The translations under genes were made by a program, and so were the position numbers. A DNA stretch of 64,000 nt, from NCBI GenBank assembly GCA_947627875.1, contig CANQXS010000004.1:1-64000 (forward strand), read 5' to 3'. Origin of the DNA: an uncultured Clostridia bacterium (GTDB lineage Bacteria > Bacillota > Clostridia > Oscillospirales > Ruminococcaceae). Positions 38,215 through 50,158 of this stretch are shown here, piece after piece. Numbering within the stretch: the stretch's first letter is position 1; each line of letters begins with the position of its first letter. The notes beneath the pieces were generated by a model. The model searched no databases. It had not been told where the DNA came from and worked only from the letters and a program-made list of their open reading frames with translations.

Positions 38215-38227
38215 TTATCTCTTCGAG
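38215..38227 (-). other. left attachment site with relict rpsI end
   Basis: On the minus strand this reads C-TCG-AAG-AGA-TAA, that is Ser-Lys-Arg-stop, the same C-terminus as rpsI 11.5 kb away. The shared core with the right end is CTTCGAG (38221-38227 and 49763-49769). Confidence 0.75.
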
Positions 38228-38274
38228 TTTAAACTATCATTTCGCGCAACCTGTTTTATTTTCTCTTGCATATT

Positions 38275-38299
38275 CAAATCGCGCTGTGATGGCGTAAAC
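38275..38299. repeat. left-end arm sites shared with the right end
   Basis: CAAATCGCGC (38275-38284) and ATGGCGTAAAC (38289-38299) recur in the same order and orientation at the right end (49700-49709 and 49724-49734) with different spacing. They are probable integrase or Xis binding sites. Confidence 0.5.
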
Positions 38300-38356
38300 G
38301 ACAGGTAACTCGCTTTCTCCGACTTTTCCTAATTTTTTGCGTCTTTTTGCAGCTTT

Positions 38357-38377
38357 GTTGACCAAAGGTTGACCAAC
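38357..38377. repeat. left integrase arm-type repeat
   Basis: GTTGACCAAAGGTTGACCAA contains two copies of TTGACCAA and matches 18 of 20 bases at 49683-49702 near the right end. Confidence 0.6.
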
Positions 38378-38413
38378 AACATTACCTCATGGCATATCTC
38401 TGCTTAAAAATAA

Positions 38414-41002
38414 TCATGCCTTCTTTTGGTCTACCACTTTACACCTTCTCGCAAAATCTTCATGCCACTTTTTAAGGCGGTCAATATCGTTCTCTATATC
38501 GCTCAATTCCGGCAAACTCACCGGTCGTTCCAAAGACTGAGAGTGCTCATACTCAGAATATTTTGTCATCATGCTGTCAAACAAGGCGACATCATCGAGT
38601 GTGACAATCTTTAGGTATCTTAATCTATGCGATTGTACCGAAGGTCTGAAACGCATGACGATATTGTTGAGAAGATCCGTCTCTATTCCGTGCTCTACGG
38701 CTTTTCTGAGATCCGAGCACAACGATTTTATGCCGTTGTCGTACTCATCATAGCTTCCTTCTTTTTGAAGCTTTTTGAGTCTGGGAATTTTGTCGGATAG
38801 TTTGCCGAGAGCCTTATCTATGCTTGCCGAGCCGATATATTGAAGCTCGGAAGGCTCTCCCAACGGGCTGTTTCTCAGTTCAACCAACTTAAGCTTAAGT
38901 TCCGCGTGTTGTTCATTATTATAATTATCAACGCATGATTTCAAAAGCTCTGAAAAAGCAAGTCGGTGCGTGAAAACTATCACCTGACGTTCTGTGGAAA
39001 GTCTTACCAGACGTTTTGCGACACGTTTCTCATATCTATGGTCCAAGGAATTGATGGGGTCATCAAATATGAACGGCAAAACCTTATCCCAAGAGGAAAG
39101 ATCGGCAAGAAATGCCGCAAGTGACACCACGCGGAATTCCCCTTCGCTCAATATTTCGCCTGTTTTTCTCTTTTTGACGGCTCCTTTCAGGACGACCTTG
39201 TGGTATGCCCTTCCCTTTTCAGCTTCGGAAACAAGCTCTACCCTGATTTTTTTATCGGTATCCATCAGCCGCATCTCCTCATTGAAACGCCTGATATATG
39301 TATCCGTAATCAGCAGCTTGGTCAGGTCTTTTTTCAGCGATGTGACCGCGTTGGTCTTGCAGGAAGATATGCCGTTATTTATCATGATGTCCTTCCTGCG
39401 AACATCTTTATTCTCGTTTATCCATTTTGCAGTCAGAAGGTCGTTTAACCGTTTTATATGCCCATCTCTGTTTTCGATGAGATTTTTAAGCGATTCTATT
39501 TTGCTGTCATAAGCGGATATACATCTGTCCTTTATTTCCTGCAAAGCCTTTAGCTCGACAAATTTGGGAATTTCTGTCGTTACGTCGCTTGTGTATTCCA
39601 AAAGCCATTTGCACCTTGACGCGGCTGTTTTATATACTGAAATAATAAAATTGATCAAATCATCAGGCAAACTTATAGCTCTAAGAGTGCCTTCTGTGTT
39701 CTCAATGTTTATTTTTCCATATTCTTTTTGAAGCTCGTCCGTAAATTGTTTGAAATTCTCAAGAGCTTTTTCCGCTTTCTTTATAGCCGAAGATGAAGCG
39801 TATTTTGCAAATTCTTCAATGCGTTTCAGAGCGTCTTCCGAAAGGGTCTGCTGACACAAAGCGCACTTGCCGTCAACGGCTATGCTGTCGGCAGATTCAA
39901 CGCCCGCGTCCTTTGCATAATTGACCGCATTCGACCACATTGTTTTCCATTTATCAGAGCCTGTACGGTTTAACAACGAAACGCTTTTCAGTCCGTATAT
40001 CGTCCTGTCCGCCTCAGTCTTGGCGTCTATCTGAGCCTGCCGCAAGGTTAAATATTTTTCGCCCGCGCTGTTTCCCGTTTTTGCGATTAAAGCCGCCAAC
40101 TCTTCAAACCGCTTTTCAATAAACGCTTTCTGAGATTTGAGCTCACTAAGCTTCTGAGCGGGGTCCTGCTCTTTTAAATCTTCCCGAAGCATATTAAGCT
40201 CCGTCTGTTCCTTCTCCGTCCAGATAATTTCCGAAATAAAATTATCAAATTGTTTAAGCGAATTGAGATTAAGAAAAGCGTTCACGGATTTCTGTGTAAA
40301 AATTGCTTCATCGGGCTTGGTCATGAGAGCCGAATTATCCTTCTTCACATCCTCAAACTTTTCTTTAACACCTTCATACACCTTCGCCATAGCCGACAGC
40401 ATCGACAGCGCCTGCGGCTCGTAAACGATCTCGTTTCTCTCTTCGACAAATCTTTTTGCCACCGATGAATCGTAAATGTTCAGCGGACAATTGCTTTCAA
40501 GATACGGGTGCCAGGGAATATTTCTCTCGCTGCCGTCGTCGATGTATGTCAGTGTTGCTTTCGGCTTCGACTCGCCGGACTTATAGATATTTCCTAAAAT
40601 TTCATCTGAATTTTTGGGCGATGCCGCGCTCTTTAGTATTCTGACATAAGACGACTTTCCGCAGCCGTTTTCGCCGTATACTATAGTTAGATTGTTTCCG
40701 AACTCCAAAGGCTTTGTCGGAACCAATGCGCCGACGTCCTGAACTTCCGATATACTTTTCAAAATAACGGGACAGCCCTCAGAGGACGAAAGTTTTATCT
40801 CGGTAGGGAAATCGACCGCCGGAGCAAATTTTCCCGCCTCTCTGAGATATTCCGCCTTGGCAAGGCTAAAAGCCCTTGATATAAGCCTGTCCATATTGTC
40901 GTCGCCGTGCCATAAACGGCAAAAAAGGTCTTTTTGCCAGTCGTCGGCTTTTTTGAACCAATTTTTCAGGAGCGATACCGCATCCGGCTGAACGTCGTTC
41001 AT
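38414..41002 (-). CDS. SMC-like AAA ATPase with zinc hook (RloC/PrrC-like), probable defence protein
   Basis: The 862-residue protein has Walker A (VYGENGCGKSSY, near 109-119), long coiled coils either side of a zinc hook (KCALCQQTL, near 385), an ABC signature (LSEGEFRVVSLAAFL), Walker B (PFIFDDPINSLDH) and a switch His (VIVFTHRL). This is the AAA_13 architecture shared with the anticodon nucleases PrrC and RloC. The C-terminal 150 residues (RKAVEHGIETDLLNNIVMRF...YSEYEHSQS) may be the effector but carry no motif I can name. It is the last gene after a damaged restriction locus, where such ATPases often guard against failed restriction. Soluble. Defence is inferred. Confidence 0.75.
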   Translation of the reverse strand: MNDVQPDAVSLLKNWFKKADDWQKDLFCRLWHGDDNMDRLISRAFSLAKAEYLREAGKFAPAVDFPTEIKLSSSEGCPVILKSISEVQDVGALVPTKPLEFGNNLTIVYGENGCGKSSYVRILKSAASPKNSDEILGNIYKSGESKPKATLTYIDDGSERNIPWHPYLESNCPLNIYDSSVAKRFVEERNEIVYEPQALSMLSAMAKVYEGVKEKFEDVKKDNSALMTKPDEAIFTQKSVNAFLNLNSLKQFDNFISEIIWTEKEQTELNMLREDLKEQDPAQKLSELKSQKAFIEKRFEELAALIAKTGNSAGEKYLTLRQAQIDAKTEADRTIYGLKSVSLLNRTGSDKWKTMWSNAVNYAKDAGVESADSIAVDGKCALCQQTLSEDALKRIEEFAKYASSSAIKKAEKALENFKQFTDELQKEYGKINIENTEGTLRAISLPDDLINFIISVYKTAASRCKWLLEYTSDVTTEIPKFVELKALQEIKDRCISAYDSKIESLKNLIENRDGHIKRLNDLLTAKWINENKDVRRKDIMINNGISSCKTNAVTSLKKDLTKLLITDTYIRRFNEEMRLMDTDKKIRVELVSEAEKGRAYHKVVLKGAVKKRKTGEILSEGEFRVVSLAAFLADLSSWDKVLPFIFDDPINSLDHRYEKRVAKRLVRLSTERQVIVFTHRLAFSELLKSCVDNYNNEQHAELKLKLVELRNSPLGEPSELQYIGSASIDKALGKLSDKIPRLKKLQKEGSYDEYDNGIKSLCSDLRKAVEHGIETDLLNNIVMRFRPSVQSHRLRYLKIVTLDDVALFDSMMTKYSEYEHSQSLERPVSLPELSDIENDIDRLKKWHEDFARRCKVVDQKKA

Positions 41003-41016
41003 ATTACACCTCTCAG

Positions 41017-42111
41017 TTAAATAATTATCTCATCATTACACTCAAACTTACCAATCGCGTCGGCATAGCTCAGCCTGCCCGATTTGATCTCTTCGGCAAG
41101 GAGCAGGAGGTTGACCGAGTTTATCACTGCGCCGTTAATTGACGACCGCTGGCTGATGTTCAGAATCCTGTCCCTGAATCCGCCCGTAAATTCTCCCGAA
41201 ACAAACGCAAAATTAAAGCTGCTTACGGTGCTGTCGAAGATTTTCCACCACTCGTTCGGGTTCAGATTTTTATCGCGCTTGCGGTTTTCTTCGAGATACC
41301 TCAGCATTTCGTCCGCTTGCGTGATGGGCAGGGAATACCCCTTGCCGTATGCCTTGTTGTCGATGATAAGCCCTTTGTTTCCGTGATATACGCAGACGTC
41401 GGGCTTTCTTGAATCGCCGAGCCGCGAGCCGCTGAAGCCGAGTTCTCCCGTCAGCAGATCGGCAGTCTGGAGTTCATATTCCCTGTCTGCGCTGCCGTCA
41501 AACCCGAGGTCGATAAGCACAAGATATTTGTGGTTGATGTGATTAAGCCGCCCGCGAACGCTGTCCTTAAGAAGCGTGACGTCAGACTTTGAAGTATGCT
41601 CCGAGGCGGCGATATTCGGAATATCAAGACCGATTATGCTGTCGGTGATTCGGAACTTTCCGCCGCTTTTTCTTATGTTTATGCCTATGTTCATCAGCCC
41701 CTGAATATCGTCAAGAACCGTTTCGACGTCCTCGCTCATACCCTTTGTTTTGAGATATTCCGCAGCTTCCTCGGCGGTGCGGTAGTCGGTCGTCAGATAC
41801 TTGATGAGATATGTCCTTCTGTTTCTGAGATAATTTCTGTCCGACGGCTTTGTCGCAAGCATATCCCACATTACGCGCTTGTCAATGCGTCTGAATTTTG
41901 AAGCGCCGACCGAGTATTTCAAAATCTTCTTGCCCTCAAGCGTGATGCGATAGGACTGGGCGATGGTATCGGTGTAGACCGTATAGCCCAAATCAGCCTT
42001 GACTTCTTTCGGAACTTGAACGACCCAGCCGACGCTTTTGAGCCACGAGCATATCGTTCTTACATATTTATCCGACGTCCCCTCGGTGTCGGTGAGGAGT
42101 TTAACTATCCC
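41017..42111 (-). pseudogene. FokI-like type IIS endonuclease lacking its N-terminal recognition domains
   Basis: The reading frame from 42111 matches FokI from its third recognition subdomain to the end: GTSDKYVRTICSWL, YRITLEGKKILKY, then the cleavage domain SRKPDVCVYHGNKGLIIDNKAYGKGY...QADEMLRYLEENRKRDKNLNPNEWWKI. The PD...DxK residues are intact. The first roughly 300 residues of FokI, which read the target sequence, are missing; the frame enters from the HNH gene end with no start codon until TTG 41991. It is either a dead remnant or a short protein of 324 residues from TTG 41991 (as in the ORF track), which would have a nuclease but almost no recognition part. Confidence 0.8.
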
Positions 42112-42833
42112 TTAAAAATCACGTCTCTATGATAATCAAGGTTGATCTTCATCTCTTCTGACAAGTGGAAATTATGCAGCTGAATGTCGTGTTCTATCTT
42201 TCTCTTGTTATAGTCGGAAACTTCACTCGAAATAATCATATTTAAGTTATTGTCAAATGTTATGAGCCCGCTGTCAAAAAGTCTGTCATATAGAGGTGAC
42301 AGCAACAGACCGTTTTCCGAACTCAATCTTTCTGCGTTGTCGCTTGAACGCCAAGGCTTTATATGACTTGCGATGAGCAGCCTTGCATCGTCTATTCCTG
42401 TGACAATGCACTTCTTATATTTTAGCATTATTCTGTCTCTGAATATTCCCTGACCGATTCTTGCCTTGATTATCATCTGTTTTTCGGTGATGTCAAGACT
42501 TGCACTGTTATTTATCTCGTCAATCTCACGTTGTATTATCGGGTTTACCCCGTCGATGATTTCATTATCGTTCATAGAGCGCAATCCCCAATATCCTTCT
42601 CCGAGACCGTATACGGAATAGAATAAATCCGGTGCGCCCCGATATGATTTTGTCTGACTGCAATGCCTTTGGATCACTGCTCTAACATTATTCCTCCAAT
42701 TTATGTTTGACAGCATAGGAGCTAGCAATCCGCGATTTTCGATACGCTCCGAAATCTCATTGAGCGAACCCATACCCCCAAGTTCGGACAATGCCGATAC
42801 TATTTCGGATAGGTAGCTGACACCGTTTGGCAT
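42105..42833 (-). CDS. HNH restriction endonuclease
   Basis: The 242-residue protein has an N-terminal winged-helix-like segment (GSLNEISERIENRG, NWRNNVRAVIQRH) and a C-terminal HNH nuclease: CIVTGIDDARLLIASHIKPWRSSDNAERLSSENGLLLSPLYDRLFDSGLITFD, the pattern of HNH restriction endonucleases (PF13391 type). It starts 5 bases after the truncated methyltransferase with a strong AAGGAG site, and its stop lies within the first bases of the FokI remnant. No intact matching methyltransferase is visible, so it may cut modified DNA or be partnered elsewhere. It occupies exactly the gap between the two broken FokI-type genes. Confidence 0.85.
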   Translation of the reverse strand: MPNGVSYLSEIVSALSELGGMGSLNEISERIENRGLLAPMLSNINWRNNVRAVIQRHCSQTKSYRGAPDLFYSVYGLGEGYWGLRSMNDNEIIDGVNPIIQREIDEINNSASLDITEKQMIIKARIGQGIFRDRIMLKYKKCIVTGIDDARLLIASHIKPWRSSDNAERLSSENGLLLSPLYDRLFDSGLITFDNNLNMIISSEVSDYNKRKIEHDIQLHNFHLSEEMKINLDYHRDVIFKG

Positions 42834-42837
42834 AAAA

Positions 42838-43281
42838 TCATCTCCTTAAATCCTTTATCACTTTACGTTTCGCTGTCTCTCCGACAGTCAGCCTGATTAT
42901 GTCGATTTTAAGCGCATTTTCGGGTTGAAAATACATTCTCTCGCAGTCACCGACGGGGCTGTAATTGTTGTAAATAAAGCATTCCGAGGGCTTAAAGTCG
43001 GTATCTTCGGGTTTTAGTGCGTTGAGATATTTTATCGGGTCGGCGATGCCGAGGTTGCGAAAGCTCGGTCTTTTATTCAGCACGACCGACGCATAGGACA
43101 TGACATAGCTGAAATACAGAAAGTCGTTGCTGACGGTTCTGTATCCCGCTTTTTTGAAGCTTTGGGAGACCGCTCCCGAGCCTGCAAATATATCAATCGC
43201 CGACGACACCTTCGGTATCTCCGAGTTGATGACGCCGCAAATTTTATCCGTCAGAAGGCTTTTGCCGCCAATATATCTCAT
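42838..43281 (-). pseudogene. D12-class adenine methyltransferase (M.FokI-like), 3'-truncated
   Basis: The 147-residue product starts like M.FokI/D12 methyltransferases: RYIGGKSLLTDKI, the SAM-binding AIDIFAGSGAVSQSFKKAGY, then NDFLYFSYVMSYASVVLN. It ends soon after CFIYNNYSPVGDCERMYF with the unrelated tail KRKVIKDLRR. The catalytic (D/N)PPY region and the rest (150 or more residues, or a second domain in M.FokI) are absent, so it cannot methylate DNA as it stands. Truncation is at the border with the HNH gene. Confidence 0.8.
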
Positions 43282-43365
43282 CGCTTGACCTCTTTTTACA
43301 ATTATACATAATAATTATACCATGAAAATCCGAAATGTCAACGAGGATAAACGCTTTACGCCGCG

Positions 43366-44466
43366 TTATTTGGCTCCGCACCTCTCCATTATCCCCTCGG
43401 CAATCGCCCGAATTTCCGCCTTAAACTTCTCCCCCATCTCGTAAAGCTCATCAGTCGGCAGTCCGTTGCGGATCAGTCGCTTTTTAAGGCTGTTCATCTC
43501 TGCCTTGCGCACCTCTTTCGCCTGACAAAACTCGTCGTACTCCGCAGGGCAGCGCGTATTTATCCCTGCGGCTTTCAAGTAGCCGTCATACCGCCTGACA
43601 AACGCGTCATAGGTGCGCTTTATCTGCGAATACTCCTCGGTGTGCTCCTTGTAGATTGCCTCTTTTTGCTCCTTGTGGGCGGCTTGGCAGGACGCCTGCC
43701 GGCAGCAGACTTCCTCTTCTATTCCGAGGAACATCTTCCCGCAAAAGCCGCATTTTCGCGGGCTGAGGGCGTTTCGGTGCACTATCTGCCCAAGCTCAAA
43801 GAGCAAGGTTTCAAGGCAGTTGCCGCACTTATGAAACGCGCCGAACGTATAATCGTCGCAAAAAATAATCGTTTCGGATAGCAGGACGGCAAAGGCGTTA
43901 ATCTTTTGCCCGCAGTCAAAGTACGCCGCGTCTCCGATTGCCCCAAAATTACTGTCAAAAAAAGTGGTGATTTTCGCGGAAATTTCGGCTTGTATCCTGC
44001 TTTTATTGAGCGTGGCGAGCAGGACATCGTTCGGCGCAGACAACGCCGTCCGCTCCTCGCCATAAAGCTCTTGAGCCGCAGTCATCAAGCCGCGTAGAAA
44101 AATATTTTCGCCGTATGAACGCGGGGTTTTGTCCAAGAGGACGAGCGGTCGGTCGTTTATGACCGCGAAGTCCGATTGGGAACAAAACCAGCTTTCATTT
44201 TCGGCAGTGAATCCCGCAAGCATATCATCGGCATTGACAGGAACGCCCCTGCCGATGTGCAGCGCGCTCAAAAACCTGTTGAGGCAGTTTTCGATAAGCG
44301 TCCCGCTGTCGCGAAATGCAAGGTGCTGCCTTAAAATCTCATCAAAAGTAAAGTTTTTTGTGTTCAAAACTGCCGCTTTGATACTTTCGCTATCATCATT
44401 AACAGACTGTGCGATGTCAATCGTGCGGTCTGTTTCGTTTATGCGGTAAATCGTAACAGTTTTCAT
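43366..44466 (-). CDS. DUF6076-like zinc-ribbon protein of unknown function
   Basis: A 366-residue soluble protein. The C-terminal third has a treble-clef or ribbon-like cysteine cluster, CGFCGKMFLGIEEEVCCRQASCQAAHKEQK, followed by charged helices. The N-terminal part has no recognisable motif. Proteins of this layout are common on clostridial integrative elements and are usually named DUF6076. It lies divergently from the YfjI gene; the 218 bases between them hold the TGCGCAAAATGCGCAAAATCC repeat. A regulatory or DNA-binding role is only a guess. Confidence 0.6.
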   Translation of the reverse strand: MKTVTIYRINETDRTIDIAQSVNDDSESIKAAVLNTKNFTFDEILRQHLAFRDSGTLIENCLNRFLSALHIGRGVPVNADDMLAGFTAENESWFCSQSDFAVINDRPLVLLDKTPRSYGENIFLRGLMTAAQELYGEERTALSAPNDVLLATLNKSRIQAEISAKITTFFDSNFGAIGDAAYFDCGQKINAFAVLLSETIIFCDDYTFGAFHKCGNCLETLLFELGQIVHRNALSPRKCGFCGKMFLGIEEEVCCRQASCQAAHKEQKEAIYKEHTEEYSQIKRTYDAFVRRYDGYLKAAGINTRCPAEYDEFCQAKEVRKAEMNSLKKRLIRNGLPTDELYEMGEKFKAEIRAIAEGIMERCGAK

Positions 44467-44624
44467 CTTGCGCCTACCGATGTTTTTCCTGCCGTAATTT
44501 CTCTTACAAATCCGTATTTTCGGACTTGAAACGGCTGATTATATATTTTTTTCAAAATTGTTGTACGTTTGCGTGCAACTTTTTTCGTTTTCCCGCTAAG
44601 GGTGAAGGGCGGTGCAAATCGGAG

Positions 44625-44647
44625 TGCGCAAAATGCGCAAAATCCAG
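44625..44647. repeat. 23-bp iteron-like repeat, copy 1
   Basis: TGCGCAAAATGCGCAAAATCC plus AG, identical to 46189-46211. It contains two tandem TGCGCAAAA units. It lies upstream of the YfjI/DUF3987 gene. Confidence 0.75.
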
Positions 44648-44684
44648 GGTACCGCTCTAAAAAACAAAGAAAGGAATTACAACA

Positions 44685-46154
44685 TTGGAACAAAACATCA
44701 ACTGGCAGACTCCGACCCCGATCAGGGCGAACGGTGCGCGGCTCGCGCCTTTTCCCGTCGCTGCTCTGCCGCCCGTTTTGCGGGATTTTGCGGAGGCTCT
44801 CGCGGTCAGCACCTCGACCGACCCTGCTATGGCTGCGACAGCGCTCCTGAGCTCCCTCAGCTACTGCTTTTCGGGAGTTTATCGGGTGCAGGGCAAGGCG
44901 GACCACACCGAGCCGCTTGTCCTTGATTCGCTGATTATCGCCGAGCCGAGCACAAAGAAATCGCCGGTAATCTCTGCTGTAAAAAAGCCCTACGCCGACT
45001 TTGCTCAGGACTGGAACGAGCGCCATAAGACCGAGATTTTTAAGCGTCAGGCGGAGAAAAAGCTGCTCGAACAGCGGCTCTCGGAGCTTGAAAAGTCAGG
45101 CGAAGCGAACGCCGACGAGATAGCCGAACTGCAAACCAAGTTAAGCAATTTTGAGACCGCGGGCTTCCGCCGAATCACCGTCGACGACATCACGCCGGAA
45201 TCGCTCGCTGATAAGCTTAAGCAAAACGGCACCCTGCTGATGATCTCCGACGAGGCGGGAATGCTCGGAAACTTTTCGGGGAGATACTCAAATAACATAC
45301 CTAACCTTGACCTGCTCCTGAAGTCTTGGAACGGCGAGAGCTACATCAGCGACAGGGCGACGAGGGAGAGCGTGTCGCTAAAACGACCGTATATGTCGGT
45401 CTGTCTGGCGGCGCAGCCGTATGTCTTTGACAGCATGATGAGCAACTCGGCGTTCAGGGGCAGCGGACTTTTGGCGAGGTTCGTCTACTGCTTCCCGAAA
45501 GATTTAACGGGTAAACGAAATTACGACAGCGAACCCGTCCCGAAGAGCGTTTCGGAGGGCTACAAACGGCTTATCTACGCGCTTTTGGAGAAAAAATTCG
45601 CCCTGCCCGCCTCGAACTCACGCGAGAAAATAATCACGCTTGACGGCGTGAGTTACGGGCTGTTCGTGAGCTTCTGCAACGACTATCTCGAAAAAGAACT
45701 GTTAGGCGACTTAGCTTTTTGCGCAGACTGGGGCGGCAAGATGCACGGGCTTCTGCTGCGAATTATCGGGCTTTTGCACGGCGTGAAATGCGCTGTCGAG
45801 GGCAAGAATCCCGAGGACGTGCGCGTATCCGAGAGGACGTTTACCGACGCGGTTGCAATCGCGCTCTACTACCGCGACCAGACGGTGCACGCCTACGGGC
45901 TCGGCGATTTCGACGCGGGAACGCTTCAGGCAGAGCGTATCATCGCGAAAATAAAGTCAAATGGGATAACTAATATCCGTCAAAACGACTTGTACCGTCA
46001 GTGCAGGTGCAAGCTCTTCCGCAACGCCGCAGACTTCGACGAAGCCGTTAATATGCTTGAGGATTACGGCTATGTCAGGCGCGAGGTCAGCAGCGGGGCA
46101 AACAATAAACCGATGGTTGACATCACGGTCAATCCGCGAATCTATGAAACGTGA
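44685..46154 (+). CDS. YfjI/DUF3987 family protein
   Basis: The 489-residue protein starts at TTG 44685 with AAGGAA 8 bases upstream. It shows the DUF3987 pattern common on mobile elements and in prophages: PLVLDSLIIAEPSTKKSPV (Walker A-like region), LLMISDEAGMLGNFSGRY (Walker B-like), RGSGLLARFVYCFPKD. A C-terminal winged helix (GITNIRQNDLYRQCRCKLFRN...MLEDYGYVRREV) follows. Members are thought to be replicative helicase-like ATPases. Identical iteron-like repeats lie before and after the gene, which suggests they are its binding sites for element replication or autoregulation. Confidence 0.8.
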   Translation: MEQNINWQTPTPIRANGARLAPFPVAALPPVLRDFAEALAVSTSTDPAMAATALLSSLSYCFSGVYRVQGKADHTEPLVLDSLIIAEPSTKKSPVISAVKKPYADFAQDWNERHKTEIFKRQAEKKLLEQRLSELEKSGEANADEIAELQTKLSNFETAGFRRITVDDITPESLADKLKQNGTLLMISDEAGMLGNFSGRYSNNIPNLDLLLKSWNGESYISDRATRESVSLKRPYMSVCLAAQPYVFDSMMSNSAFRGSGLLARFVYCFPKDLTGKRNYDSEPVPKSVSEGYKRLIYALLEKKFALPASNSREKIITLDGVSYGLFVSFCNDYLEKELLGDLAFCADWGGKMHGLLLRIIGLLHGVKCAVEGKNPEDVRVSERTFTDAVAIALYYRDQTVHAYGLGDFDAGTLQAERIIAKIKSNGITNIRQNDLYRQCRCKLFRNAADFDEAVNMLEDYGYVRREVSSGANNKPMVDITVNPRIYET

Positions 46155-46156
46155 AC

Positions 46157-46232
46157 TTTGCACATTTTGCACACGCTGAGCGACAAAATGCGCAAAATGC
46201 GCAAAATCCAGAAATTTTGAAAGGACGATAAA
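46157..46232. repeat. iteron-like repeats between YfjI and HTH genes, copy 2
   Basis: TTTGCACATTTTGCACA (46158-46174) is roughly the inverse of the TGCGCAAAATGCGCAAAA units at 46189-46211, giving an inverted pair. The 23-bp unit is identical to the copy at 44625-44647. Confidence 0.65.
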
Positions 46233-46586
46233 ATGAACGATATTGAGAAAAATGAAAGCCGATTTTGTTCCTGCTCGCCTGCCCTCGGCGTCAACGATTG
46301 CCTCGGTTGCCTTGCAGACAAAATCGGCGTTCATAAGGAAATTATTGGGAACATTGTTGAGCTGCTTGAAAGGCTTATCGATGACAGGGAGAACGGCGAA
46401 GCAAAGAGCCAGCCGGTCGAAATGCTGACTATTAAGGAGTGCGCGGGCGCGGTTTCGGGGCTTTCGGAGCATACCGTGCGCAAGCTGGTCGCGCAGGGCA
46501 AGGTCAAGTCAATTCGCACCGGCGAGGGCAAGCGCGGGAAGATCCTCGTCAACAAAGCTGATCTGCTTAACTATTTTCAGCGGTGA
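46233..46586 (+). CDS. helix-turn-helix (excisionase-family) protein
   Basis: A 117-residue protein with an N-terminal cysteine group (CSCSPALGVNDCLGC), a helical linker and a C-terminal MerR/Xis-type winged helix: MLTIKECAGAVSGLSEHTVRKLVAQGKVKSIRTGEGKRGKILVNKADLLNYF. It binds DNA and may serve as excisionase or replication regulator of this element. Its stop overlaps the primase GTG start by four bases (GTGA). Confidence 0.8.
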   Translation: MNDIEKNESRFCSCSPALGVNDCLGCLADKIGVHKEIIGNIVELLERLIDDRENGEAKSQPVEMLTIKECAGAVSGLSEHTVRKLVAQGKVKSIRTGEGKRGKILVNKADLLNYFQR

Positions 46587-47164
46587 TTTTTGAGGAGATA
46601 AAAGCGGCGGTGGATATGCCGACGGTAGCGCGGGGGTATGGGTTGAAAATCAACCGCTCGGGCATGGCGATTTGCCCGTTCCATCAGGAGAAAACTCCTT
46701 CCGCGAAGGTTTACCCCGATGGGTTTCACTGCTTCGGCTGCGGGGTGCATGTTGATGTCATCGGCTTCACGCAGAGGCTTTTTGACCTGCGCCGACCGAT
46801 TGACGCAGCGAGGAAGCTGAACGACGATTTTTATCTGCACCTTGATGTTGGCGGCAAGACACCGTCCGCGCAGGCGAGCGAGTACCGCAGGCGGCAGCGG
46901 GAGAGGGAGGAGTATGAGCGTTGGAAGAGGGAGGCGTGGAATACCCTGCGGGGGTATTTGCGGCTGATGTATGAGTGGCGGGAGATGTCGCCGAGGTGCC
47001 CCGATGATGAGCCTGACCCGAGGTTTGCGTATGCGCTCGGGCAGGCGGGGTATGCGGAGTATTTGTGCGAGGCGTTCATAGCCGCAGATGAAAACGGCAG
47101 AAAGGCTATGAGAACGGAAGTAGAGCGGATAGCGGGATTTCTCGGCGGTTTGACCGCCGATTGA
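46583..47164 (+). CDS. CHC2 zinc-finger primase fragment
   Basis: The 193-residue protein starts at GTG 46583 inside the previous stop. It has the DnaG-type zinc-binding domain ICPFHQEKTPSAKVYPDGFHCFGCGVHVDVIGF (Cys-His-Cys-Cys) and then a charged helical tail; the TOPRIM polymerase domain is absent. Short CHC2 proteins of this type are frequent on clostridial elements and presumably act with the YfjI-type protein to start replication. It could recognise a primer site. Confidence 0.85.
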   Translation: MIFEEIKAAVDMPTVARGYGLKINRSGMAICPFHQEKTPSAKVYPDGFHCFGCGVHVDVIGFTQRLFDLRRPIDAARKLNDDFYLHLDVGGKTPSAQASEYRRRQREREEYERWKREAWNTLRGYLRLMYEWREMSPRCPDDEPDPRFAYALGQAGYAEYLCEAFIAADENGRKAMRTEVERIAGFLGGLTAD

Positions 47165-47211
47165 CCCCGTAGGGCGCAAGGGCGCTTTTGGCTTGCCGAA
47201 AGTGCTTTTGC

Positions 47212-47232
47212 GTTACTTTCGCAGAAAGTAAC
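47212..47232. repeat. palindrome before the relaxase gene, candidate oriT
   Basis: Perfect 9-bp arms GTTACTTTC/GAAAGTAAC with a GCA loop, 36 bases before the MobV gene. MobV relaxases usually nick at an inverted repeat just upstream of their own gene; no nic consensus was recognised. Confidence 0.5.
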
Positions 47233-47267
47233 AAAGGCAAAGCTACTTTTTATTTATAAGGAGGACT

Positions 47268-48407
47268 ATGAAAAGAACTATCAGCGCTATGGTCGGCAAA
47301 GGCTCGGTCAATCACAACAGCCGCAAGTTTAAGGCTGCGAATGTTGACGGCGAGCGAACCGACCGAAATATTGATTATTGTAATGAGGACATCAAGGCTG
47401 TCTATCATGAATTATTTGATAGTGCGTTAGAGCGGTACAATGCCAAACAAACCCGCGACGACCGTCGGATTGAGGATTATTATGAGAAAATCAGGTCAGG
47501 TAAGCAAGAGAAACCGTTCCATGAATTTATTTTGCAGATTGGCAACAAGGATAATATGGGAGCGACCACCGAAAACGGCGAACTTGCCAAGCAGGTTTTG
47601 GATGAGTATTATCAAGGCTTTCAAAAGCGGAATCCCACGCTTCGAGTATTCTCCGCTCACTTGCACATGGACGAAACCACACCGCACCTGCACATTGACT
47701 TTGTGCCGTTCACGACAGGTAGCAAGCGGGGACTGGATACCCGCGTTTCGCTCAAACAGGCACTTGCCGCGCTCGGATTCAAAGGCGGCACAAGGGGCAT
47801 GACTGAGTGGAATCAATGGGTACAGGCAGAGAAACAGGCTCTCGCGGAAGTTATGCTCAACCACGGAATTGAATGGGAGCAAAAGGGAACGCACGAAAAG
47901 CACCTGTCCGTTCTGGATTTTGAGAAGAAGCAGCGTGCCGAAGAAGTCGAGCAGCTTAACGCCGAGATTGAATCCGCAAAAACGGACTTGAAAGCGGTGG
48001 AAAGGCAGTTGAATCAGACCGTCCCCAAGCTGAAAAGCGCGGAGAAGTTGGCGCAGGATTTTCCCGATGATGTAGACAAACTGCTACCCGGGGCGGGAAC
48101 ATTGGAATCCGCAAAAACCTACCGTGAGAAAAAGGCGAAACCCGTGCTTGAAAAGGCGGTCAGGCTCATCAAGTCATTGTATCACAGTGTGCTTGATTTG
48201 CAAGCCGAGAATCGCGAATTACGCGCCAAATTCGACAGAAAAGAGAACAGTTATGTGAGGGTCAGTGAGCATAATAAAAAGCTGCTGAAAGAGAACGTAG
48301 AGCTTAGGCAAAGCGCAAAAGAATATGAAAAAATCAAGGGCTTTCTTGGAAAAGAAAAGACGGAAGAAATTCTTTGTCAGAAGAAAAAAGTACAAAAGTC
48401 ATTATAA
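47268..48407 (+). CDS. mobV: MobV-family relaxase
   Basis: The 379-residue protein has the MobV (pMV158 Mob) motif HLHMDETTPHLHIDFVP and an N-terminal KGSVNHNSRKF region; the C-terminal half is coiled-coil (ELRAKFDRKENSYVRVSEHNKK). It nicks oriT and pilots the strand through a helper's conjugation apparatus. ATG follows AAGGAGG. Full length for the family. Confidence 0.93.
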   Translation: MKRTISAMVGKGSVNHNSRKFKAANVDGERTDRNIDYCNEDIKAVYHELFDSALERYNAKQTRDDRRIEDYYEKIRSGKQEKPFHEFILQIGNKDNMGATTENGELAKQVLDEYYQGFQKRNPTLRVFSAHLHMDETTPHLHIDFVPFTTGSKRGLDTRVSLKQALAALGFKGGTRGMTEWNQWVQAEKQALAEVMLNHGIEWEQKGTHEKHLSVLDFEKKQRAEEVEQLNAEIESAKTDLKAVERQLNQTVPKLKSAEKLAQDFPDDVDKLLPGAGTLESAKTYREKKAKPVLEKAVRLIKSLYHSVLDLQAENRELRAKFDRKENSYVRVSEHNKKLLKENVELRQSAKEYEKIKGFLGKEKTEEILCQKKKVQKSL

Positions 48408-48497
48408 ATAAAGGGACATATCTTGACACTTTAAAAGCTGCGATGTACTATATAAGTGCAGAGATATGCCATAGTGTGAAATAGGAGGAATTTACAT

Positions 48498-49637
48498 ATG
48501 GCAAGTATAACAAAACGTGGAAATACATATCGCATCAGAGTTTTTGTCGGCACAGATATGACCGGCAAAAAATTGATGAAATCCACTACATTCACTCCGC
48601 CCGACGGCGTTACACCCAAGAAAGCCGAAAAACTGGCCCAGGAATATGCACTTGAGTTTGAGCGTCACTGCAAAGGCTATGCAGTCCTTAATGAGAATAT
48701 GCGTTTTTCTGAACTCGCCGAATGGTACTTCTCGAACTATGCTCTTCAGGAGTTGAAAGAAAGCACGGTCTACACATACAAGGGTCAGTATAAAAAACAT
48801 ATTGAACCTATTCTTGGCAATGTCAAAGTCAAGGATATTAACGCTCCCAGACTGACGCAGATTATGCAGTCTTATGACCTGAACCCTTCTACTGTGAGAA
48901 AGCTCTATGTAATCGTGCAAAGCATTTTTCGTCGAGGAGCGGAACAAGGCTTTATCCGTGATACACCATGCCGAAATGTGGTGCTTCCGAAGCGAAAGAA
49001 AAGCCGTAAGAATAAGGCTCTTGAGGAAGACAAGCTCAGACGCTTCATGAACTATCTTGAAAGTAAGCCGTGGGACGAAGATTTCAAGAGGATTATAAAG
49101 ACTTTGCTGTATACGGGAATGCGTTCGGGAGAGTGCCTCGGTCTTTCATGGAATGATGTTGATTTTGAAAACAACCTTATTTTCATCAATCATACATTAA
49201 CTGATATTGGAGGTAGGCACGAACTGACTGAGCCTAAAACCGAGAGCAGCATTCGTGTTATCGGCATGGGACAGGAATTGAAAAACATTCTCATTGCTCA
49301 GAAAGACTATGTAGAAAAGCTCAAGCTTGCTCTTGGCGATAACTTTGCGCATCCGGAAATGGTATTCGTATCTGCTCTTGGAAATTACCGTGACCGTAAC
49401 TCCGTCTATCATTCCCTCAAACGATTTACCAAAGGCACAGAATTTGAGAGCATGACTCTTCATCAGCTTCGTCACTGCAACGCTACAATGCTTTTGAACA
49501 GCGGCATAGACCTGAAAATCGTATCAGAACATTTAGGACACTGTGATGTAAGCGTTACCGCCGACATCTATGCCGATGTCCTGCTCAGGACCAAGGCTAA
49601 GACAGCGAAACAAATTGAGCTTTGTCTTGCAGACTAA
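48498..49637 (+). CDS. int: tyrosine integrase of the rpsI-inserted element
   Basis: The 379-residue protein starts with ITKRGNTYRIRVFVGTDM (AP2-like arm-binding domain), followed by a SAM-like core-binding region and the catalytic domain with TGMRSGECLGLSW (Arg), LHQLRHCNATMLL (His-x-x-Arg), LGHCDVSVTADIYADV (His and the nucleophile Tyr). It recombines the CTTCGAG core in the rpsI 3' end with the same core of the circular element. Start: ATG after GGAGG. It lies 120 bases from the right attachment site. Confidence 0.93.
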   Translation: MASITKRGNTYRIRVFVGTDMTGKKLMKSTTFTPPDGVTPKKAEKLAQEYALEFERHCKGYAVLNENMRFSELAEWYFSNYALQELKESTVYTYKGQYKKHIEPILGNVKVKDINAPRLTQIMQSYDLNPSTVRKLYVIVQSIFRRGAEQGFIRDTPCRNVVLPKRKKSRKNKALEEDKLRRFMNYLESKPWDEDFKRIIKTLLYTGMRSGECLGLSWNDVDFENNLIFINHTLTDIGGRHELTEPKTESSIRVIGMGQELKNILIAQKDYVEKLKLALGDNFAHPEMVFVSALGNYRDRNSVYHSLKRFTKGTEFESMTLHQLRHCNATMLLNSGIDLKIVSEHLGHCDVSVTADIYADVLLRTKAKTAKQIELCLAD

Positions 49638-49641
49638 AAAA

Positions 49642-49670
49642 TAACCTCCCCGTTCAAAACAGAGAGGTTA
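49642..49670. terminator. terminator serving the integrase and, on minus strand, rpsI
   Basis: TAACCTC/GAGGTTA stem. On the minus strand it is followed by TTTTTTA, about 87 bases after the rpsI stop, so the element brings its own terminator for the interrupted rplM-rpsI operon. Confidence 0.7.
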
Positions 49671-49682
49671 CAGTATGATTTA

Positions 49683-49734
49683 GTTGACCAAATGTTGATC
49701 AAATCGCGCAACAACGCTCGCAAATGGCGTAAAC
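49683..49734. repeat. right-end integrase arm sites
   Basis: GTTGACCAAATGTTGATCAA (49683-49702), CAAATCGCGC (49700-49709) and ATGGCGTAAAC (49724-49734) match the left-end sites at 38357-38377 and 38275-38299. Confidence 0.6.
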
Positions 49735-49756
49735 TCGCCGTTTTGAAAAGCGCTGA

Positions 49757-49769
49757 TTAACGCTTCGAG
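49757..49769 (-). other. right attachment site inside the rpsI end
   Basis: On the minus strand C-TCG-AAG-CGT-TAA restores Ser-Lys-Arg-stop of rpsI using element-derived bases CGTTAA. Core CTTCGAG is at 49763-49769. Confidence 0.75.
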
Positions 49770-50158
49770 AACTGGGGAGCGCGGCGGGCTGCCTTGAGTC
49801 CGTATTTCTTTCTTTCCTTCATTCTCGGGTCGCGGGTCAGGAAGCCCGCTGCCTTGAGCTGAGGTCTGAGCTCGGCGTTATACTGAAGGAGCGCTCTCGA
49901 AAGACCGTGGCGGATAGCTCCGGCCTGCCCCGAAACGCCGCCGCCCGCTACCGTGCATACGATATCGAACTGCTCGGCAAGACCGAGGAGGTTGAGCGGC
50001 TGACGAACGATGAGCTTGAGGGTCTCAAGTCCGAAATAATCGTCGATGTCGCGGCCGTTGACGGTGATTCTGCCGGTGCCCTGATAAAGGCGCACTCTCG
50101 CTACGGAATGCTTCTTTCTGCCGGTTCCGTAAAAGTAAGGATTCTTGGATTCGTACAT
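49757..50158 (-). CDS. rpsI: 30S ribosomal protein S9
   Basis: The 133-residue protein is a clear S9: [55 protein letters not shown] and the C-terminal RRAPQFSKR that reaches into the ribosomal P site. It is the second gene of the rplM-rpsI operon. Its last codons are now encoded by an inserted element (see the attachment sites), which keeps the conserved Ser-Lys-Arg ending. Confidence 0.98.

Follow-up and report, generated by a model that had tools for sequence, protein, structure and literature searches.

The origins of PICIs, found immediately 3' of rep, have an AT-rich region between two sets of iterons and drive the replication of plasmids (PMC6092414). The Cch2 protein of SCCmec uses its C-terminal domain to bind repeats that follow closely after its own gene (PMC7581432), and in PICMI deletion of the primase gene, which is modelled by DUF3987/DUF5906, leads to fewer circular copies (PMC10803314). 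DUF3987/YfjI proteins occur widely among phages and mobile elements; that they are helicases had previously only been predicted (PMC5862659). Here we analysed a 64-kb stretch of DNA (the window) in which short repeats adjoin a gene of this family. We consider it probable, with a likelihood of roughly 0.78, that these repeats are the iterons of the origin of an 11.5-kb mobilizable element and that the winged helix of its DUF3987 protein is their binder.

The window carries an 11.5-kb integrative mobilizable element, at positions 38221-49769, which is inserted in rpsI, the gene for ribosomal protein S9, at its 3' end. Its ends and its genes other than cargo are as follows.

38221..38227, no strand: left end, putative core site CTTCGAG; the identical 7 bp occur at the right end, and the flank is homologous to element-free relatives
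44685..46154, plus strand: DUF3987/YfjI-like putative initiator helicase, 489 aa (Pfam PF13148, E 3.9e-80; PHROG 'DNA helicase')
45915..46151, plus strand: codons of the C-terminal winged helix, residues 411-489 (predicted secondary structure; Foldseek)
46095-46109, plus strand: wing loop, residues 471-475 (AlphaFold2 model)
46233..46586, plus strand: HTH_17/excisionase-like small protein (Pfam PF12728; excisionase profiles)
46583..47164, plus strand: CHC2 zinc-finger protein, like the N-terminal part of DnaG (Pfam PF01807)
47268..48407, plus strand: MobV/Mob_Pre relaxase (Pfam PF01076; NF041497 match below cut-off)
48498..49637, plus strand: tyrosine integrase (Pfam PF00589)
49763..49769, no strand: right end, CTTCGAG; it lies at the 3' end of rpsI, a minus-strand gene at 49757-50158

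An integrase, a relaxase, defined ends and an empty site in relatives, by which integrative mobilizable elements are recognised, are all present. The C-terminus of S9 was found in the flanking ORF, and in the same-genus genomes G556 and G551 the site is empty and the flanks of the element adjoin. Inside both ends (38274-38299 and 49699-49734) the direct repeats TCAAATCGCGC and ATGGCGTAAAC occur in the same order and are possible integrase arm or end sites. Cargo of the restriction/defence type fills 38414-43281, including a PDC-S06-like AAA/SMC protein, a FokI-type nuclease (cleavage and D3 domains) and an HNH nuclease. A 147-aa match to a D12/type II methyltransferase in the same region covers the N-terminal part of that family only, suggesting a modification gene that is truncated or split, while the nucleases are present.

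The 23-mer TGCGCAAAATGCGCAAAATCCAG occurs identically at 44625-44647 and 46189-46211, with exactly two copies in the window, as the earlier note had reported. When its 21-mer core was searched with up to three mismatches, the same 64 kb gave just two matches against 0.01 expected from shuffled sequences. The same note had paired the second copy with an inverted sequence, and this partner, TTTGCACATTTTGCACA, was indeed found at 46157-46173. Across the whole 2.57-Mb genome an exact 17-mer search hit solely the two window sites, and allowing up to two mismatches added the inverted arm plus two partial matches at scattered sites elsewhere. The true repeat unit in the window is a 9-bp tandem unit, GCGCAAAAT, arranged in these blocks:

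44625..44647, plus strand: upstream repeat, GCGCAAAAT at 44626-44634 and 44635-44643, then CCAG
46155..46172, minus strand: left arm of the downstream array, two units (GTGCAAAAT and GTGCAAAGT) read leftwards
46181..46211, plus strand: right arm of the downstream array, a degenerate CGACAAAAT at 46181-46189, GCGCAAAAT twice at 46190-46207, then CCAG

The two downstream arms form a single opposed array, with the left arm running leftwards and the right arm rightwards, separated by a short spacer that is not AT-rich. The first base of the left arm (46155) directly follows the stop codon of DUF3987, and the array reaches into the leader of HTH_17, the gene that follows. The upstream repeat sits 38-60 bp 5' of the DUF3987 start codon; upstream of it, at about 44500-44600, the DNA is 65-72% AT. 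The possibility that the repeats are integrase ends was rejected, as the element ends at 38221 and 49769, far from them.

Comparison with 68 related loci, and others from the same family, identifies the downstream array as the feature that they have in common. Aligned in register, its units share the consensus GYNXAWWRT; the register scoring favoured A at position 5, whose invariance is thus partly by construction, and left position 4 free. Autocorrelation within the arrays reached 0.47 at lag 9 and 0.37 at lag 18, against about 0.26-0.33 for control sequence at the same lags. The earlier note had proposed that loss of the repeat from relatives with the same gene order would speak against it; the array begins at about stop+1 of DUF3987 in all 49 classifiable relatives, and its sequence varies between elements. 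A pair of copies flanking the YfjI gene, as that note described, is a property of the window's own sub-clade (window, L036 and L037) and not of the other relatives: the upstream copy is kept, with at least two units, in L036 and L037, so that all three C-type members with an upstream region available for comparison have it, and is absent from L038 and the other approximately 45 relatives. The constant feature is therefore the array behind the DUF3987 stop codon rather than the gene-flanking pair, and the downstream array, not the upstream copy, is the main feature. In the loci scanned, a strict two-unit pattern carrying the element's own base 4 occurred at the array site and in three other settings, namely the upstream copy (window, L036 and L037), a second array in L038 and a second array in L103, the last recognised by eye; the strict patterns of other classes gave zero matches in any scanned locus. 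The strict pattern missed those arrays that were the most degenerate, namely the GGTGCAAAA class and L054, and a looser register placed them. The sister elements L038 and L103 are without HTH_17, and in them the array is doubled around a stretch of 75% and 78% AT, respectively; the L103 integrase is 99.5% identical to that of the window. In the L085 group HTH_17 is located elsewhere, and the repeats still stand behind the DUF3987 stop codon. These repeats and the upstream copy in the window are direct, without an inverted partner.

The sole Pfam match of the window helicase is DUF3987, a family found in 5 of 250 genomes in a phylum-wide Pfam search. A scan of viral contigs with a single-sequence query recovered no relatives; with an alignment-based query it recovered six distant ones. 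The AlphaFold2 model (pLDDT 87) predicts an AAA+ core followed by a C-terminal winged helix. In Foldseek comparisons of the core with the PDB, the best matches were subunits of MCM2-7 (best E 4e-5, TM up to about 0.4); the likeness is one of fold only, and the window protein has no MCM sequence match in the PDB. The C-terminal domain, modelled separately, matched winged-helix DNA-binding proteins, none of them below E 0.001.

The array co-varies with the wing of DUF3987 and with no other tested part of the protein or gene. Among 43 loci with HTH_17 downstream, we compared array distance (6-mers) with the distances of protein segments by Spearman correlation. The coefficient was 0.82 for residues 461-485, which make up the wing, against 0.13 for residues 30-200, 0.16 for 201-400 and 0.32 for 405-460, and it stayed at 0.82 when HTH_17 and the helicase were controlled for (0 of 500 permutations). 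Linkage adds to this co-variation, because the array adjoins the wing codons; the coupling drops at once on both sides, since the array is coupled neither to the codons immediately preceding the wing nor to the adjacent downstream gene. Individual pairs illustrate the pattern: L045 and L043 are 97% identical in the N-terminal region and 93% in HTH, with different wings and unrelated arrays, and L073 and L063 have a near-identical helicase and HTH_17 and differ in wing and array. Statistically, the repeat sequence thus appears matched to the element's own initiator.

Much of this match can be traced to a single position. Base 4 of the unit was predicted by the residue inserted at the wing tip in 49 of 49 arrays: a short wing (NNK) goes with C (15 arrays), an Asn at the tip with G (26 arrays), and a Cys or Ser with T (8 arrays). 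When all variable DUF3987 columns were scanned with no prior choice, the wing-tip insertion column came first and carried all 1.43 bits. Its normalised score was 0.94, followed by 0.55 for the next column; helicase columns reached at most about 0.2 and HTH_17 at most 0.20, and the top 13 DUF3987 columns all fell within residues 469-489. The correspondence extends to both close and distant proteins. L038 shares 85% identity with the window protein and combines a Cys tip with T-type units; L063, from another clade, has a Ser tip and likewise base T; and the L085 group, at 47% identity, has NNK wings and the repeats CCACAAAAW, with C at this position. On the helicase tree, the wing and base 4 each changed 13 times, in full concordance, and the starred branches gave 3, 2 and 2 independent pairs, again all concordant and too few for significance alone; as few branches of this tree are well supported, it shows the independence of these events only partly. 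This correspondence between residue and base appears to be new.

Several other functions could be proposed for the repeats. The most plausible of these, though in our view an unlikely one, is that the array is an operator through which DUF3987 or another regulator controls its own gene from the upstream copy and HTH_17-CHC2-Mob from the downstream copy. The two window copies precede two genes, 22-60 bp from their start codons; within the sub-clade the upstream one is conserved, and initiators often autoregulate. An operator role may exist, perhaps alongside the origin. However, the array stays at the DUF3987 stop codon where the downstream gene has changed (the L085 group, L038 and L103), about 45 relatives lack the upstream copy, DUF3987 resembles a replicative helicase, and a doubled array around an AT-rich stretch suits melting rather than regulation. 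That the repeats are instead sites for HTH_17, used in excision or as its own operator, is the least probable of the readings considered. HTH_17 is the next gene and is excisionase-like, and Xis proteins bind short direct repeats, but near-identical HTH_17 proteins adjoin unrelated arrays, with a correlation of 0.06 (partial 0.016), and the best HTH_17 column explains little of base 4. The array also lies away from the ends of the element and persists in L038 and L103, which lack the gene.

We also considered whether the hairpin that the inverted arms can form is itself the functional feature, either as an RNA leader, attenuator or terminator of HTH_17 or as a stem-loop origin resembling that of pRN1. 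Folding of the arms is favourable, most of all on the minus strand (-16.8 kcal/mol, z -4.3), and in pRN1 a stem-loop lying 3' of the replication gene is required (PMC4234260). Nevertheless, this reading is very improbable, scarcely ahead of the HTH_17 sites: complementarity of the arms is not kept (87 A-C mismatches vs 110 G-U, with many A/A or T/T mismatches at positions 6-7), neither the upstream copy nor the L085-group repeats have an inverted arm to pair with, and an Rfam search gave no match. A hairpin would also leave the wing-tip correspondence unexplained. A terminator scan gave a minus-strand match inside the repeat only and no plus-strand terminator there.

The reading of the repeats as origin iterons rests on a replicative-type helicase whose winged helix is matched to an array behind its own gene, as in PICI/SaPI and SCCmec Cch2. 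The earlier note had suggested an element origin bound by YfjI, the HTH protein or a DUF6076-like protein. An origin bound by YfjI is the version best supported, by the co-variation of the wing and the PICI/SCC-like placement of the array. The HTH protein is not supported as a binder, as it shows no co-variation, is absent from the two elements in which the array is doubled and lies elsewhere in the L085 group. Nor is the DUF6076-like protein; its gene (43366-44466) is divergently transcribed cargo and had no match in Pfam, NCBIfam or PHROG.

In the mechanism that we propose, the DUF3987 protein would be the element's own initiator helicase, and its C-terminal winged helix would bind the GYNXAWWRT units of the array at its own stop codon. 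The opposed sets of units may load two helicase rings facing apart; the DNA would melt nearby, and the CHC2 protein, the probable priming partner, or a host primase would begin synthesis on the excised circle. Specificity for base 4 would come largely from one wing-tip residue, with none specifying C, Asn specifying G and Cys or Ser specifying T, and if the tip does set this specificity, the wing and array would be expected to change together while the helicase and neighbouring genes stay constant. The upstream copy would most likely be an extra DUF3987 site that restrains expression of its own gene, or else an auxiliary set of iterons; autoregulation is our preferred guess.

This locus probably works like a PICI/SCC-type replicon, and it is not a member of either group by helicase family or gene content. 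As in PICI/SaPI (PMC6092414, PMC7581432), there is an initiator helicase with a C-terminal dsDNA-binding domain (here predicted), an origin (here probable) immediately 3' with short iterons, and integrase and excisionase-type genes nearby, and in L038 and L103 only there are two iteron sets flanking an AT-rich region. In contrast to PICI/SaPI, the helicase is DUF3987 rather than the DUF927 or D5/Primase_Cterm of SaPI Rep, and a separate CHC2 (DnaG-type) protein takes the place of an AEP primase. The element also has a relaxase and restriction/defence-type cargo and no phage-satellite content (packaging, phage interference), and its 9-bp tandem units are opposed, with most members having one compact array without an AT-rich centre. 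The SCCmec Cch2-CCPol-MP system (PMC7581432) likewise combines a self-loading-type helicase with direct repeats just downstream and a C-terminal domain as their binder, a role that the winged helix probably plays here, but its helicase family differs, its iterons are 5 nt, its partner is an A-family polymerase, and its recombinases are serine recombinases.

The arrangements of P4 and pRN1 are looser parallels than PICI/SaPI or SCCmec Cch2. The alpha protein of phage P4, with its ori/crr sites (PMC4234260), shares helicase and priming functions and a winged helix that binds origin repeats, as it presumably does here; unlike this element, P4 is a phage satellite with a fused Toprim primase-helicase and a different repeat. 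ORF904 of pRN1 (PMC4234260) also has a C-terminal winged helix, with an origin directly 3' of the replication gene and an inverted sequence. In pRN1 the integrity of the stem matters, whereas here the unit sequence is conserved and the complementarity of the arms is not. In geminiviruses, fast-evolving iterons are thought to be matched to their cognate Rep, although the paper questions whether the match is essential (PMC12548392); that Rep is a rolling-circle HUH protein, and its protein and DNA layout are unrelated to those described here.

These results give DUF3987/YfjI a probable origin, a probable recognition domain and a specificity rule that is testable by swaps of single residues, and they make the origins of uncultured gut elements locatable as 9-bp tandem repeats just behind a DUF3987 stop codon. 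We regard the odds as even that the DUF3987 helicases are a large class of initiators, undescribed so far, whose recognition of the origin is altered when a cassette of roughly 150 bp, made up of the wing codons and the array, is exchanged, with a wing tip of none, N or C/S going with C, G or T at base 4. In the open-access literature, coverage of which is incomplete, we found no description of a DUF3987/YfjI origin with iterons, and its novelty is accordingly provisional. In several genomes a single contig carries two DUF3987 elements that are no more than about 15 kb apart and differ in wing and array: L076/L081 (CANQKD010000015), L043/L085 (JAILMR010000086) and L047/L090 (FPIR01000014). Incompatibility would predict that elements residing together do not share an array class; the few MAG pairs gave a mixed picture.

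Immediately behind the stop codons of more distant DUF3987 genes, from phages and from a Streptomyces plasmid, tandem 9-bp repeats are frequent (L104/L118/L020, L113, L025, L031 and L117), though not universal. In the wings of L104, L116, L110, L020 and L024, a G-R-P (AT-hook-like) tip replaces N-N-K, and such a tip may contact the minor groove and follow a different residue-base rule. On the circular Streptomyces plasmid NZ_CP107792 (L117, 3991-4150), the order is PrimPol, YfjI, repeats CTGACAGAACTGACAGAACCCCC, HTH and integrase, the same as in the window, and the repeats stand right behind the YfjI stop codon.
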